Positions 1 through 50,448 of a stretch of 64,000 nucleotides of DNA are shown here, one piece after another (within the stretch, counting starts at the first letter, position 1; each line of letters begins with the position of its first letter). This DNA comes from Verrucomicrobiales bacterium (GTDB lineage Bacteria > Verrucomicrobiota > Verrucomicrobiia > Verrucomicrobiales > DEV007): contig JARGOP010000001.1 of the NCBI GenBank assembly GCA_029233965.1, forward strand, positions 144,598 through 208,597, in the 5' to 3' direction. The notes below the pieces were generated by a model. The model did no database searches. It was not told where the DNA came from and worked only from the letters and a program-made list of their open reading frames with translations. The translations under genes were made by a program, and so were the position numbers.

Positions 1-88
1 CCATCAGGACACCTTAAATGAACCATCAGGACACCTTAAATGAACCATCAGGACACCTTAAATGAACCATCAGGACATCTTAATTGAC
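1..88. repeat. 22-bp tandem repeat carrying an RBS and ATG
   Basis: Three identical 22-bp units (1-22, 23-44, 45-66) are followed by a fourth at 67-88 that differs at three positions and lies inside tatD. Each perfect unit contains AGGA followed 8 nt later by ATG, so start-codon modules sit at 18, 40 and 62, in three different frames because 22 is not a multiple of three. The ATG at 62 is the tatD start. The array is cut by the window edge, so its true copy number is unknown. An assembly artefact at a contig end cannot be excluded. Confidence 0.95.
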
Positions 89-3293: not shown

Positions 3294-3593
3294 TCAGTCC
3301 CCTTTGTTTGAGGAGTCGTTCTGTTTCGAAATCTCCTCTTCGAGTCGCTCGCTGAGCCATTGCTTGATCATGCTCTGATAGTTCAGGTAGCGATGACGGG
3401 CGAGTCGCTTGATGCGGCTCAGCATCTGCGGATCAAAGCGCAGGGTGATAGTCGTCGATTCGCGAACGTTCTGCCGGTGCAGAGAAGCGTTCATCAATCG
3501 GGGATCAAGGGTGTGAACAGCCCAGAAGTCGGCCTCTTCTTTCTCGTCCTCAAACTCAGGGATTTCGTTCCAGTTCTCGATCGTTTTCACCAT
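3294..3593 (-). CDS. brnA: BrnA/CopG-like antitoxin
   Basis: A 99-residue protein with an acidic, Trp-containing N-terminus (ENWNEIPEFEDEKEEADFW) and a C-terminal ribbon-helix-helix-like part (STTITLRFDPQMLSRIKRLA, then a helix ending in QWLSERLEEE). This is the arrangement of BrnA and related CopG-type antitoxins, where the RHH binds operator DNA and the other part binds the toxin. It lies 49 bp downstream of a BrnT-like toxin on the same strand, the usual toxin-first order of brnTA. The intervening segment carries two imperfect 22-nt repeat units ending at this start codon. It probably represses its own promoter with the toxin, as in known brnTA systems. Confidence 0.8.
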   Translation of the reverse strand: MVKTIENWNEIPEFEDEKEEADFWAVHTLDPRLMNASLHRQNVRESTTITLRFDPQMLSRIKRLARHRYLNYQSMIKQWLSERLEEEISKQNDSSNKGD

Positions 3594-3642
3594 TCAACAG
3601 GGTTAAGTCCTCAATGTCACAGGGTTGGGTCCAGGCTCAGTC

Positions 3643-3921
3643 CTAGACCCACTCGGCATTCTTGCGCTCGTAGAAAGAGACTTCCTCCTCCACCATTTCC
3701 CTGGCGAAGATAACGCGGTAGTTCTTGCCGTCGGTCCAGAAAAGGGAAAAGAGGAAGCGGTTGTTGATCGTCTTCCCGAGAGCAAAATAGCGGGCTTCCG
3801 CCCCGCTGGAGTCCGTTTCCGGAAGGAGCCGGATTGAAAACGGGTCCTCAAACGCCTCTTCGATTTCGGGAGGGGTGATTTTCTTGAGGTCGAAGTGACA
3901 ACCAATCCAGTCAAATTCCAT
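3643..3921 (-). CDS. brnT: BrnT-like toxin (putative RNase)
   Basis: A 92-residue protein starting at MEFDWI. FDWIGCHFDLKK resembles the BrnT opening (usually W-D-x-x-K-A-x-x-N), EEAFEDPFSI matches the next helix, and FLFSLFWTDGKNYRVIFAREM is the strand-turn-strand core of this RelE-fold RNase family, ending YERKNAEW. The open frame extends 67 codons upstream, but that part has no BrnT character, so the internal ATG is chosen. The GCHFDLKK stretch departs from the common NxxKH pattern, so activity is not assured. The brnA-like antitoxin follows. Chromosomal type II toxin-antitoxin system is the best reading. Confidence 0.75.
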   Translation of the reverse strand: MEFDWIGCHFDLKKITPPEIEEAFEDPFSIRLLPETDSSGAEARYFALGKTINNRFLFSLFWTDGKNYRVIFAREMVEEEVSFYERKNAEWV

Positions 3922-26132: not shown

Positions 26133-27179
26133 TTAGCCGCCATTCAAAATGGAGCGCAAGTGTTTTTCTTTCTCATCAACAGGAGCACCGCCACCCGAAT
26201 AATCGGTCGTGCCAAGCGGTTCTGCAACGGCTGAAATGCTATCGGGGTCCACCGGTCCGGCAAAGGTAGCCGGGATATTTTCACTCATGGAAACGTCCAC
26301 CGTAGCAAGATGCTGCCCTATCTTCTCAGCCTGCTTGAGAACCAATTCGAGATCCTCCAGCCCGCGGTCTACATCATAAAGGGAAAAAACCGTCTGGAGC
26401 CCACTGCGATAGCGGCACTGGAGCGACCACTCATTCCGGACCCTGACAAGTTGCACCTCCATGGAGCCGTCCTCTGACAATTCAGGGGATTTCAGCACAA
26501 GATCAATCGCTCCAAGCATCCCGTCGTCAGTCAACTGAATGCCCTCAACCGGCTCCGCCATCGCAAAATTTTCAATGATCGGAAGCGACTGAATCCCCTC
26601 GGTCAGGTCAAGGCAGCGGAAGAGGTAGCCACCTTCATCAACGAGAAATCCGCGCTCCATGTCGCCGGGACGAACACCAAGCGGCGGGCATGAGATCCAG
26701 GCGACAGGCATGCGCTCCTTCACCATGATGTTCAATCGATCCGGCATTTCCCGTGAAACGACGACTTCCTGCACCACCGGAATCTTCGAAATACGCTCTC
26801 TGATCTTCTCCAAATCGAGCTCGAGAAGTTTCATTCCGGCAGAAACATTGGAAATCTCTGACAGGCTTGCTGCGGTGAGGACACCGTCACTTTGGAAATT
26901 CAACTGCTTGAGAACAAACTCGTCGTTCTCAAAAAAGATCTCGTTGTGCGCCCACTTAGCGCCATAAGGAATACTGACGGAGAGGCAGGCAAGCGCCAAA
27001 CCACGAATCGCCCAGATCTTTGCCCGACTGCGAACCGTCTTATTTATCCTGCCGGTGGAGGAACCGGGGTCGGCCTCAAGCATGATCCATTCGGTCTCAT
27101 CGACACCCTGGTGGCGACGCCGGAAAATCCCCCCTCTCTGTTTCTTTCGCTGATTTAAAATTCCCCGTTTCTTTCGCAT
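26133..27179 (-). CDS. ftsQ: FtsQ/DivIB-like division protein
   Basis: A 348-residue single-pass protein: very basic N-terminus (KKRGILNQRKKQRGGIFRRR), one membrane segment (about residues 55-75), then a POTRA domain (LKQLNFQSDGVLTAASLSEI ... KIPVVQEVVVSREMPDRLNI) and a beta domain with PVAWISC and GFLVDEGGYLF, both typical of FtsQ. FtsQ links early and late divisome proteins in the periplasm. Its start codon overlaps the ddl stop by one base (TAATG), so the two are coupled. Confidence 0.88.
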   Translation of the reverse strand: MRKKRGILNQRKKQRGGIFRRRHQGVDETEWIMLEADPGSSTGRINKTVRSRAKIWAIRGLALACLSVSIPYGAKWAHNEIFFENDEFVLKQLNFQSDGVLTAASLSEISNVSAGMKLLELDLEKIRERISKIPVVQEVVVSREMPDRLNIMVKERMPVAWISCPPLGVRPGDMERGFLVDEGGYLFRCLDLTEGIQSLPIIENFAMAEPVEGIQLTDDGMLGAIDLVLKSPELSEDGSMEVQLVRVRNEWSLQCRYRSGLQTVFSLYDVDRGLEDLELVLKQAEKIGQHLATVDVSMSENIPATFAGPVDPDSISAVAEPLGTTDYSGGGAPVDEKEKHLRSILNGG

Positions 27180-28105
27180 TAGCCGAAATTAAACGAAAGT
27201 TTAATAATTTTCAAACAGAGAGTTGCGTAATCGATGCCTGCCGCTGCAGCCGCTTTGGGCAGCAAACTGCTTTCAGTCATGCCCGGAATCGTATTCACTT
27301 CGAGAACAAACGGTTTTGAATCCTGTTCCCGCAGCAACACGTCGACGCGCGAATAGACTTCCACTCCCAGAGACCGGTGAGCCTTCAGCGCTTCGCCCTG
27401 AACCGTCGCAGTGATTTCCTCCGGCAAATCAGCGGGGCAAAAATAGTCAGTTCCCCCGGCGCCGGTCATCCAGGGATACTTGTTGGAAATGTCGTAGAAC
27501 CCGGAGCGTGGCTGAATATGAACAATCGGAAAGACCTCATCACCCAAGACACCGACGGTCAACTCTTTGCCGGTGATCAATTGCTCGACGAGAACATCCG
27601 GACTGTATTTCGCCGCGTCAGCAATCGCGGTTTTCCATTCCTCCAAATCGTGAACGAGGTGAACCCCGACGCTGGACCCCTCACGCGGAGGCTTCACGAC
27701 ACAGGGAATCCCCACTTCTCCGGGCTCCGCCGTTCCGTCATTGACCACGACCGTCTCGGAGAGCGGAGTGCTGACCCCGGCCTGCAGAAAGCATTTCTTG
27801 CTGAGAATCTTATCAAAGGCGACGCGTGAACTGGATTCACGAGCCCCTGTGTATGGCACCCCTTTCTTTTCCATCAAGGCCTGAAGAGCACCGTCTTCGC
27901 CAAAGGTTCCATGAATGACATTGAAACCGATGTCCGTCCCGACAGGCAGATCGAAGTCCTCTCCCGTGACATCCACGAGGACAACCTCTCTGACCCGACC
28001 TTCCAGCGCACCCAGAACCCCTTTCGCTGAAGCCAGCGAAACTTCCCTCTCAGAACCGGGACCACCGGCAAGGACAGCCACCTTCAAATCTCTCAATTCT
28101 TTCAT
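27179..28105 (-). CDS. ddl: D-alanine--D-alanine ligase
   Basis: A 308-residue ATP-grasp ligase making D-Ala-D-Ala for peptidoglycan. VAVLAGGPGSEREVSLAS is the N-terminal signature, VIHGTFGEDGALQALMEKKGVPYTG the second, and SRVDVLLREQDSKPFVLEVNTIPGMTESSLLPKAA includes the metal-binding Glu/Asn and the omega-loop Tyr region. Length is normal. It overlaps ftsQ by one base. The leader carries the 22-nt-period ACCCTGTT-type repeats near 28129-28162. Confidence 0.96.
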   Translation of the reverse strand: MKELRDLKVAVLAGGPGSEREVSLASAKGVLGALEGRVREVVLVDVTGEDFDLPVGTDIGFNVIHGTFGEDGALQALMEKKGVPYTGARESSSRVAFDKILSKKCFLQAGVSTPLSETVVVNDGTAEPGEVGIPCVVKPPREGSSVGVHLVHDLEEWKTAIADAAKYSPDVLVEQLITGKELTVGVLGDEVFPIVHIQPRSGFYDISNKYPWMTGAGGTDYFCPADLPEEITATVQGEALKAHRSLGVEVYSRVDVLLREQDSKPFVLEVNTIPGMTESSLLPKAAAAAGIDYATLCLKIIKLSFNFG

Positions 28106-28158
28106 AAACTTTTTCTTATCGAAGTATTCAACAGGGTTGAGTCGTCGCCCGGACAGGG

Positions 28159-28638
28159 TTATGCCACTGGCTTTGTCGATGCGCCTTTAATGAATCCGCC
28201 TGCAGGTCCTTCGGGCAGCCGATCAGCGATGGCTCGCGCTATCTTGACCATGGCTTCCGCGCTGAAACCTGACTCCCATTCTCTACAAGAGCCCTCCCAG
28301 GTCACCTGTGGCCACGAAGCGAGCTGATTCGCGACGGGCGCCGGTGCGTGTCGTCGGCATTCACTACCCGAACCGGCGGTTCGCGCCCTCCCGGTGAAAT
28401 CGAGGTATCGACAGGTCTGGCGCGAGATTTCATCCATTCCCAAAGCAGGAGGAGAATTTCCCCGGCGCGCTAATCCTTCGACTTTTTGCCATGGCTTGAA
28501 AACCGGAACTACCTCAACAGACTCCGAATCGGTTTCCGGCTGACCGCCGTCCAGCAAGGGAGCATCAATTCTTCGCGCAACCTCTCCGGATTTCCAGGAT
28601 TCCGGCTCCGGATTTCCGGCCGAGAAGTGATTGTTCAT
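28159..28638 (-). CDS. Hypothetical protein in the division cluster
   Basis: A 159-residue frame between ddl and the murC-murB gene, starting 5 bp after the latter's stop, as expected for an operon member. It has no signal peptide, membrane helix or motif that I recognise; it is rich in Pro, Glu and Trp early on and has an amphipathic helix near the C-terminus (AEAMVKIARAIADRL). No competing frame covers this interval. Real but unassigned is the most likely reading; a non-coding spacer is possible. Confidence 0.5.
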   Translation of the reverse strand: MNNHFSAGNPEPESWKSGEVARRIDAPLLDGGQPETDSESVEVVPVFKPWQKVEGLARRGNSPPALGMDEISRQTCRYLDFTGRARTAGSGSECRRHAPAPVANQLASWPQVTWEGSCREWESGFSAEAMVKIARAIADRLPEGPAGGFIKGASTKPVA

Positions 28639-47346: not shown

Positions 47347-49095
47347 TCACTCCGCAGCTTCAGTCTCCTCTTCGCGAACTCCATTCTTCACCTCGAATTC
47401 ACGGCACCAGCCCTTGATTTCGAGATCATTGAAGATCTTGCCCATGACGCGACGAAGAAGTCCCTTAAGATTGGGATTCTCCAACCCGGCAAGACTGCGC
47501 ACCGCGGCATCTTTGTAGGTTTCCAGAAGGAGGAGGCACTTTTCATCCGCCTCGACTTCGTGGGCCAGGGTGCGGATTTTATGAATCGCGATGTCCTTGA
47601 GGTCTTCGTGGCTCCAGAGTGACTCCATCAGTGCCTTGTCGTCCCCCCTTGCCCGCTCACGAGCGAGAGCGAGGAGAACACTCGGACGCATTTTCTCGAG
47701 TTCATTGTCGCCGGCATCGGCTCCCAGGTCGTCCATGTCATCGCGGATCTGGTAGGCGATCCCGAGATTTTCGGAATACTCCTTGAGCACATCCCCGACT
47801 TCATCGAGCTTGCCTGCGTAGCTGGCTCCGAGCTTCAGAGCGACCTCAAAGGCCGGTGCTGTCTTTTGTCTGAAAATCTCGAGCACCTGCTTGGATTTCA
47901 ACGGCTTGGGATCCTGAGCCCAAACGAGCTCAGCGCCCTGACCACGACACAATTCACGCTGTCCGCGGGATGAAACGAGAAGCATTTCGGTCTTCTGTGC
48001 ATCGGAAATTTCACTCTCGCCAATGAGGCGATAGCCCTCACCGATCAGCAAGTCCCCGGCGTTGAGTGCAACCGGAATGCTGTGCTCAACATGAAGCGTG
48101 GGCTGATCGTAGCGACCGTGATCCTCGTCTTCGATATCGTCGTGGATGAGTGACGCTTTGTGGAAGAGCTCGGTCGCGACGGCGATCTTCTTGAGATCCT
48201 CCGGGATCGGTTCTCCGCGATCATCGCGCAACGCTTCAAACGCGGCGGCGGTCAGGAAAGGACGCCAGCGCTTGCCGTCACGGGCCAGCCATTCGCGGGC
48301 GATTTCCTCCTGGCGACCTTCGGCAGGCCCCATGATCGTCTCGATCGACTCAGCGGTGAACCACTCCTTCACCTCTTCGTGCAGAGCGTTGAGATCAAGA
48401 CGGCGGGTTTTGTCGTCGCTCGTGAGATGGATGTATTCCCAGACCCAGTCAATGTCGACGGTGGTGTTGATGCAGTCGTCCTGCAGAAGGGGCACAGCGA
48501 TGGAGGGAATCGCGGCCGCTTCGACATAGGGAAACGTGCGTTCGAGAACGGGCAGGCAGGAGATCCCGACGATGGCCTCAATCTGGCCGGTCTGAATCAG
48601 AGACATCACAATTGCCGATCCCTCCGCGACCAGAACAGCATATCCGAGACGCTCCGCCTCGTTCTGGAAATCCTGGATCGAGCAGAGCCCGCACTGTTTG
48701 CAGAGAAGGCCAAATTCATCGAATGGCGCGGGGCACTTGTCCTCGACGCGAAGGCACTTCGGCATGAGGAGCAGTCTACGCTCGTAGGGAATCTCGGCGA
48801 GTGTTTCCCGCCACATCTCATTGTTCAGACAGACCGCCGTGTAGTGGAGATACGTCTCGTCGCCTTCGTAGCCAAGTTCCTTGAGAATGACGCGGGCGTG
48901 AACATCCAGTTCGTCCAGAGGCATCGGCGGAACCGGATTCACCTTTTCGATGTAGGCACGGATCGAAGCGAGAAAGTGATCCCGTTCGATCTTGGTCTGC
49001 GGAATGTATTTCTTCGGCGGACGAAAACGGGTCGTGGTAACGGGAACCGGCTTCGGAATCTTGATGGTTTGGATGGAGTCGACGGGTGAGGACAT
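47347..49095 (-). CDS. DUF116-prenyl synthetase fusion
   Basis: A 582-residue protein. The N-terminal half (about 35-235) has DUF116-like features: MPKCLRVEDKCPAPFDEFG, CKQCGLCSI and VGISCLPVLE, i.e. Cys114, 121, 132, 135, 138 and 180. The second half is a trans-prenyl diphosphate synthase: GKRWRP (274-279), first Asp-rich motif HDDIEDED (about 318-325) and second RDDMDD. Small residues before the first motif suggest a long-chain product, by family rules. It could make the quinone side chain or carrier-lipid precursor; the Cys-rich domain may bind a metal or cluster. Precedes the SGNH gene's 3' end by 168 bp, in which a GGACTC-type repeat lies. Confidence 0.9.
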   Translation of the reverse strand: MSSPVDSIQTIKIPKPVPVTTTRFRPPKKYIPQTKIERDHFLASIRAYIEKVNPVPPMPLDELDVHARVILKELGYEGDETYLHYTAVCLNNEMWRETLAEIPYERRLLLMPKCLRVEDKCPAPFDEFGLLCKQCGLCSIQDFQNEAERLGYAVLVAEGSAIVMSLIQTGQIEAIVGISCLPVLERTFPYVEAAAIPSIAVPLLQDDCINTTVDIDWVWEYIHLTSDDKTRRLDLNALHEEVKEWFTAESIETIMGPAEGRQEEIAREWLARDGKRWRPFLTAAAFEALRDDRGEPIPEDLKKIAVATELFHKASLIHDDIEDEDHGRYDQPTLHVEHSIPVALNAGDLLIGEGYRLIGESEISDAQKTEMLLVSSRGQRELCRGQGAELVWAQDPKPLKSKQVLEIFRQKTAPAFEVALKLGASYAGKLDEVGDVLKEYSENLGIAYQIRDDMDDLGADAGDNELEKMRPSVLLALARERARGDDKALMESLWSHEDLKDIAIHKIRTLAHEVEADEKCLLLLETYKDAAVRSLAGLENPNLKGLLRRVMGKIFNDLEIKGWCREFEVKNGVREEETEAAE

Positions 49096-49263
49096 AGAAA
49101 GGAGGTCGATTCAAGAGGGTCAGCTTATGGACTCAACCCTGTTCAGTGGACTCTAACATGAGACAGAGTCTCGAAAAGCACAATTCATTCAATGAATAGC
49201 GTCCTGCGCAATTAAGGGAACATTTTCGGCAACGTTTTGTAACGTTTGGGTTCGCAGTGTTGT

Positions 49264-50448
49264 CTACCGATTCACCGCGATGTTCAGAATGGTCGCGGCA
49301 TGGCCCTCACTCAGCTCGTTTTTCGTCTCCGCAACGCGGATTGCAGCAGTGTGAAAGGCATTACCAAGTCCCTGAGCGAGAATAACACTGCGAGGATAGT
49401 TGAGACCCTTGCTGTAGTGGTGATAGAGATCGATGGGCTCCCAGTCGCCGCCATCGATGCTGACCTCGAGGATTCCGGCATCCGGTCCCGCAAGCACGAA
49501 CGCTCCCAGCATGTTCCCGGAAAAGGTGAAATAAAGGTAGTTCCCCGCCTCGTCAGAGCGAAGCGCCTCATACACTTTGTAGTCGTTCCGGATCTGCCCG
49601 ACCGGGAGCAACGATTCTGAGACCGGCTCAAACTTCCATCCGCCGAGCCAGTTGAGCTTTTGAGGATCAACGAGTTCGATGGCATCATAGGCACCGGAGT
49701 CCAGCCGCTCCGGAATTGCGACCAACTGCGGAGTCTCCCCGGAAACCGTCTCGTCGATGACTTTTGTAATGAGACCGGTGGCGAAACGGTACCCGGCTTC
49801 GTTCGGATGAGTCTCATGGTAGTCCTCTTCCCAGGTCATCGTCCCTGCCTCGATCTCATTTGCAAGCGCCTGACCGATATCGACGATGGGAATATCGTAG
49901 TGCCGTGCGACATCCTTGTGCGCGGAGATGCTCACGGCTTCTTCACCCGCCTGCTTCTTCTCAAGGATCTGTGGATTCACGAACTGAACCGAAATGACGT
50001 CGCCTTTCGGGTTGGCTTCAAAATATTGACGGACAATCCCCTCAAGCCCCCGAACCGCAGTCTCGTAGTCGTGAGCGGCATCCTGATCGTCATTCACCGC
50101 AAATTCGACGATGAGAAGATCGATTTCGCCCTGCGAAAGCACGTCGCGTTCGACACGAAAAGCACCGCTCAGCGAACAGGTGGAACTCAGCCCCGCATTC
50201 GTGAAGGTAAAATCCACATCGGACCAGTTCTCCTTCAACCAGTCAGCGACCATTTTGCTGTGGCCTGTCGCCTTTTGCGTGATCGATCCCCCGAGAAAGG
50301 CCACGTGAGCCTTTCGTTCCTTCTCCATCTTTGCGATAAAATTGGAAACCCCGCGCGATCCCATCTCGATCACAGGAACCTCATCGGCTCCGATGGCAGG
50401 ATTCGAAAAAAGAATGGCGAAAACAGGGATCAAAAAAAGCGGCCTCAT
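49264..50448 (-). CDS. SGNH/GDSL-type hydrolase
   Basis: A 394-residue exported protein (signal MRPLFLIPVFAILFSNPAIGA). HVAFLGGSITQ supplies the Ser of block I, FAVNDD the Asn block, and DYHETHPNEAGYRF the Asp-x-x-His block, so it is an esterase or acetylhydrolase of the SGNH fold. A C-terminal beta domain (about 265-390) resembles a carbohydrate-binding sandwich. It is divergent from the sulfatase gene with only 39 bp between, so they may be co-regulated and act on the same polysaccharide. Confidence 0.88.
   Translation of the reverse strand: MRPLFLIPVFAILFSNPAIGADEVPVIEMGSRGVSNFIAKMEKERKAHVAFLGGSITQKATGHSKMVADWLKENWSDVDFTFTNAGLSSTCSLSGAFRVERDVLSQGEIDLLIVEFAVNDDQDAAHDYETAVRGLEGIVRQYFEANPKGDVISVQFVNPQILEKKQAGEEAVSISAHKDVARHYDIPIVDIGQALANEIEAGTMTWEEDYHETHPNEAGYRFATGLITKVIDETVSGETPQLVAIPERLDSGAYDAIELVDPQKLNWLGGWKFEPVSESLLPVGQIRNDYKVYEALRSDEAGNYLYFTFSGNMLGAFVLAGPDAGILEVSIDGGDWEPIDLYHHYSKGLNYPRSVILAQGLGNAFHTAAIRVAETKNELSEGHAATILNIAVNR

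Follow-up and report, generated by a model that had tools for sequence, protein, structure and literature searches.

Several described systems resemble, each in some respects, the repeats that we report here from a 64,000-nucleotide stretch of a Verrucomicrobiales genome (the window) and from its relatives. REP/BIME elements, which go with RAYT transposases, are described as short, palindrome-like intergenic repeats of high copy number, possibly in tandem and differing between species, and the REP/RAYT elements as palindromes bearing a GTAG or CGTC tag (PMC3733652). The parC sites bound by ParR are tandem direct repeats that vary in sequence and spacing from family to family, and they offer a model for stacking; ParR proteins of the ribbon-helix-helix (RHH) type are reported there to bind repeats of 10, 11, 17 or 20 bp and, in one case, 8-bp repeats set 3 bp apart (PMC9426499). 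At type II toxin-antitoxin operators an RHH antitoxin is described as binding adjacent sites cooperatively (PMC11980606), and integrons carry the core sites GTTRRRY/RYYYAAC, attC sites being palindromes of 57-141 bp bounded by RYYYAAC and GTTRRRY (PMC3053210).

The arrays described here share with REP elements a mostly intergenic position, a high copy number and differences between species, but they run mainly head to tail at exactly 21 or 22 bp, and they are without a GTAG/CGTC tag (by eye), shared flanks or a link to counts of the Y1_Tnp transposase family. They share tandem direct repetition with parC, but the parC of PMC9426499 is a plasmid site upstream of parM, whereas here many small arrays are spread across the chromosome. 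One array lies in a brnTA operon, yet between the toxin and the antitoxin genes, and the family as a whole is found mostly at unrelated genes. The integron core strings are matched by the arms of the common unit, but this unit measures 19 bp, and the presence of an integrase does not track the arrays. Among the papers listed from open PubMed Central, none was found to describe these repeats, as judged by titles and the opening lines of abstracts.

At the brnT-brnA locus, on the minus strand, the CopG/RHH antitoxin gene brnA (3294..3593) is preceded by the array and, upstream of it, by the toxin gene brnT (3643..3921, with its stop near 3643 and its start taken from a custom script). BrnA reaches 45.8 bits with Pfam CopG_antitoxin (cut-off 28), and BrnT narrowly passes BrnT_toxin (35.4 bits, cut-off 34.5). 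The array spans 3591-3631 and consists of two 19-bp units, GACCCAACCCTGTGACATT at 3631-3613 and GACTTAACCCTGTTGAATG at 3609-3591, with cores AACCCTGT exactly 22 nt apart. The sequence-only reading had proposed two minus-strand units spaced 22 nt before brnA, and the repeat is real, but the stated span of 3594-3640 deviates from it by a few bases. Unit 2 abuts the likely GTG start at 3590, and the ATG at 3593-3591 falls within it. In 29 of 30 genomes the codon aligned with 3590-3588, immediately after the array, reads GTG or TTG (ATG in G009), which makes the GTG the likelier start. Of the 33 genus genomes, 30 have the gene (loci L394-L423), the other copies being 62-92% identical to the BrnA of the window, with an RHH segment that hardly varies; BrnA is unusually steady for an antitoxin. 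Scoring of the gap before brnA in these 30 genomes gave a clear pair (score of at least 25) in 13, an intermediate score of 20.5-24 in seven and no array in nine, and in G029 the gap contains three units of the type peculiar to that genome; among 400 random stretches of the window's own genome, one scored at least 25 and eight at least 20. In 11 of the 13 clear cases the scored pair ends no more than 1 nt from the brnA start codon. Upstream of the called brnT start, the window has no further AACCCTGT until 28131.

The half-motif had been claimed to recur in the window with a similar period, and it does so at two further sites. A two-unit minus-strand array of period 22 (28125-28165) lies 19 nt before ddl (27179-28105, named by eye), and in the genome G024 a three-unit array occupies the gap before a ddl-like gene. 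The other (49108-49148, centre spacing 22) has a flipped and imperfect left unit and a plus-strand right unit, and its neighbours are a minus-strand reading frame (47347-49095) and a weak plus-strand one at 49300; the orthologous gap in locus L187 also holds an array. Five copies of AACCCTGT occur in the window, against a shuffle mean of 0.94 (five reached in 0 of 100 shuffles), and two pairs were observed against none in 300 first-order Markov resamples. In the entire own genome, AACCCTGT-N(12-16)-AACCCTGT is found 20 times, with a spacer of 14 (period 22) in all 20, and AACCCTGTTGA 51 times; the reversed-pattern controls gave zero for both. A repeat of the same period, different sequence and near-identical units stands at window 1-80 (also in L269, from 4464 to the end), where at least four 22-nt copies, of which the final one is somewhat altered, extend into the beginning of a TatD-like gene (ATGAACCATCAGGACA...) beside a run of Ns.

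The common unit, GAYYYAACCCTGTTRRRTC, is 19 bp long and is followed by three free bases. A scan of species genomes returned at least 119 matching stretches, the listed titles of which all name Verrucomicrobia, Verrucomicrobiia or Verrucomicrobiales. We profiled 115 first and 116 last units of the exact arrays among these stretches and obtained a conserved sequence GA-YYY-AACCCTGTT-RRN-TC, then the three free bases, with almost no conservation outside. The core and the TT, TC and GA between cores were set by the search pattern and the outer letters were not; information climbs sharply at the GA and stops at the TC. Arrays comprise two to five units and rarely one: in the samples that were not chosen by motif, single-unit clusters number 0 of 17 (G007) and 2 of 36 (G024), and they number 4 of 58 in the own genome (G000) and 2 of 131 among the MAG loci, sets that mostly were so chosen. 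Exact cores in the same direction are separated by 22, 44 and 66 nt in 150, 31 and 3 pairs, and off-phase pairs occur once each at 43, 65 and 116 nt. A flipped left neighbour was seen six times at 22 nt and four times at 44 nt, a flipped right neighbour never among exact cores; in the two samples not chosen by motif, flipped-left pairs occur in 10 of 17 clusters (G007) and 3 of 36 (G024).

Pairing between the arms of the unit is partial. Among the six arm pairs examined, the excess is clear in one (positions -3/11, pairing in 121 of 290 against 97.3 expected, 0 of 1000 shuffles) and slight in another (-4/12, 245 against 239.4, p = 0.017), while positions 11/19 of adjoining units pair in 68 of 143 cases (56.2 expected, p = 0.005). 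By eye the arms of the G024 and G029 units do not pair and could not form the stem; on these two grounds an RNA hairpin was judged a less likely reading. That the arms are mirror images in the common unit, and not in those of G024 and G029, would fit the finding of flipped units mainly in the common type.

A sequence-only model built from 40 two-unit elements gave 146 matches in the own genome at E<=1 after scoring of 150 out of 1492 candidates, each flipped pair being counted once per strand. It found matches in 29 of the 33 genus genomes, the own one included, and in none of 23 others; exact pairs were seen in 23 genomes out of 56, each of these 23 a member of the genus, with strict pair counts that range from 0 to 137 among genus genomes. 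As the model and the 22-nt search both missed the 21-nt TGTACCCTATT arrays of G029, the lack of a model match in G003, G016, G018 and the 23 other genomes may be a miss. Four scans of viral sequences yielded 0, 4, 0 and 0 matching stretches, of which two bear one and the same array-like stretch and two do not fit the unit. The shared stretch, on viral contigs L445 (488-518) and L446 (4591-4621), has two units at a period of 22 nt and ends at an ATG.

Core and period are specific to species. In 400-kb samples, G024 has its own core TGTACCCTGTT (unit GAYTGTACCCTGTTRRRTC) with a period of 22, and G029 its own core TGTACCCTATT (unit AYTGTACCCTATTGAAT) with a period of 21; the letter N in ACCCTNTT pairs is G in 72 of 72 G024 units and A in 46 of 46 G029 units, and the core letters of each are also seen in its orthologous brnA gap. 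When periods were counted by an open seed, with the variable letters left free, 36 of 36 pairs in G024 stood at 22 and 23 of 24 in G029 at 21. The same seed placed all pairs of G007 (7/7) and G015 (3/3) at 22, and the own-genome sample gave too few, a single pair at each of 22 and 21. An unsupervised count of all 8-mers at spacings of 15-60 put the array family first in four of five sampled genomes (3 places in G000, 4 in G007, 33 in G024 and 18 in G029; it was not first in G015). A putative GATACTATT family in G026 was rejected, with three matches.

We then consider placement, using genes from a custom gene caller; most of the G000 and MAG material had been retrieved through the motif, that of G007 and G024 had not. 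Only 55 of 242 clusters fall within predicted genes (19/58 in G000, 7/36 in G024, 5/17 in G007 and 24/131 among MAG loci), though such genes make up 90-92% of the DNA; in G029 the count is 2 of 18 arrays. The 173 intergenic clusters with both neighbours known lie in 115 tandem, 32 divergent and 26 convergent gaps and so follow gap types in background proportion (858, 258 and 161 of 1277). Within tandem gaps, 51 of 115 arrays are closer to the start than to the upstream stop (p = 0.26). The arrays are thus not specific to start codons, and the refuting condition that the sequence-only reading had named goes against a general leader element. Orientation is the one polar signal left: in tandem gaps, 69 arrays point with the genes and 30 against (p = 1e-4); by set, the ratio is 15:4 in G000, 42:17 among MAG loci and 10:9 in G024, and 5:5 in G029, which was counted apart. 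The 176 downstream genes are diverse, many of them housekeeping genes by eye. In L173, L180 and L081 the array upstream of a citramalate-synthase-like gene (by eye) is preceded by a conserved block, CGAATCGGGATCACC, possibly another leader element.

Arrays recur in orthologous gaps of different species with their free letters changed, at brnA, pyrF, recF, ddl, hisA, secY, nrnA and others (names other than brnA by eye). An array also lies antisense within the coding sequence of dxr, where 13 of 30 loci have both cores exact and 19 have one or more. Synonymous agreement of the dxr codons under the array averages 0.761, against 0.475 at 69 other codons, and was as high in 0 of 58 same-shaped windows (29 of 30 genomes, G029 being left out for register). 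The flanks are not shared: comparison of the array flanks in G000 gave no match, and outside arrays there were none among 69 flanks in G024 and none among 36 in G029. A first comparison, in which further units could lie in the flanks, had given 367 matches among MAG loci and 151 in G024, which we put down to such units. Copies alike at the free positions were found in 9 pairs against 3.7 in G024, and in 110 against 18.3 among MAG loci, a set that mixes species and orthologues. In 13 ortholog rows compared by eye, the relative's gap was empty and shorter in seven, empty and not shorter in two, and held an array or a decayed array in four.

The sequence-only reading had suggested an operator or a translational control element at brnA. 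A real, conserved cis signal is indeed present there, but neither an operator confined to brnTA nor a general leader element describes it; the former was rejected because arrays flank many unrelated genes and one lies within the dxr coding sequence. The repeat at brnA would be one member of a dispersed, genus-wide family of arrays. From their observed units and spacing, their placement in gaps, their recurrence in orthologous gaps, their unshared flanks and their species-specific core and period, we lean, if without great assurance, towards arrays of binding sites for a putative DNA-binding protein, stacked at intervals of two helical turns and varying between species. Each 19-bp unit would be a DNA site built around a constant core and would recur at 22 bp (21 bp in one species), close to two helical turns, and a sequence-specific protein would stack along a single face of the DNA, for the most part head to tail. 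We infer that this protein reads the arrays and co-evolves with them, and that its role may lie at the level of the chromosome, in packing or in insulation between genes, rather than in the control of one regulon. In the best reading, the arrays would also be under selection.

Readings as REP/RAYT elements, integron attC sites, RNA hairpins or minisatellites fit worse than protein-binding arrays. A selfish or mobile intergenic repeat of the REP kind, spread by transposase or slippage and then decaying, would account for the mostly intergenic placement, for the wide range of strict pair counts and for the seven empty and shorter gaps. We nevertheless hold it to be unlikely, since counts of Y1_Tnp (RAYT) do not track arrays (G002, G009 and G014, which are 75%, 69% and 91% complete, have arrays and no match), the flanks are unshared, the period is strict at 21 or 22 and synonymous positions of dxr are conserved under the array; REP/RAYT identity proper was rejected on the missing link to Y1_Tnp, and the unit consensus has, by eye, no GTAG/CGTC tag. 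Minisatellites or VNTRs were set aside because neighbouring units differ at free positions in 40 aligned elements (by eye), and a CRISPR array because there are two to five units, 3-nt spacers and many loci per genome. The match to integron core sites is striking as a string, but the integrase does not follow the arrays: in G012, 93% complete, the model matches 99 times and nothing exceeds the TIGR02249 cut-off, and a rough attC scan of six loci near integrases found none. The TIGR02249 integron integrase exceeds its cut-off in 19 of the 33 genus genomes (for example L372-L377), the own one included (G000, contig C136), and in 0 of 14 control genomes.

An element acting in the mRNA near start codons would explain why the clear brnA arrays end so close to the start and why 69 of 99 oriented arrays in tandem gaps point with the genes; but with 51 of 115 nearer the start than the stop, convergent gaps used as often as the background, an antisense array within dxr, and arm covariation that is partial and, in G024 and G029, without a stem by eye, we regard it as very improbable. 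One might ask instead whether BrnA itself reads the arrays, as an RHH antitoxin turned genus-wide DNA-binding protein, the array at the brnA gene being among its targets. Its presence and near-invariance across the genus would suit such a role, as would the array at its own gene in many genomes, those of the core-switched G024 and G029 included; the 8-bp arms alternating with 3-bp spacers recall the ParR repeats of PMC9426499, and Brucella BrnA is described as controlling its operon (PMC11980606). The RHH segment RESTTITLRFDPQMLSRIKR is, however, identical in G000, G024 and G029 despite three different cores, G026 retains BrnA yet has eight model matches, and nine of 30 brnA gaps have no array, so that we consider BrnA a quite improbable reader.

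The protein-binding reading has its own difficulties. A purely structural role of the DNA does not predict the strand bias in tandem gaps; the alike free positions, the partial arm pairing, the off-phase core pairs and the scarcity of open-seed pairs in the G000 sample also speak against it, and the empty and shorter gaps of relatives fit insertion. It is hard to picture one protein switching its specificity at so many sites, and loss and rebirth of arrays would serve equally well. One might speculate further on a lineage-specific "phased repeat code" across the chromosome, in which hundreds of arrays with two-turn spacing would be read by one protein, possibly a domesticated BrnA or another RHH protein packing or insulating the chromosome, with core and period switching between species; we think this doubtful.

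A repeat at the start of a toxin-antitoxin gene need not be the operator of that system. If a protein does read the arrays, the genus would offer a natural series of species, with the same places carrying different cores and periods (22 and 21 bp), and the co-evolution of that protein with very many sites would become directly testable.
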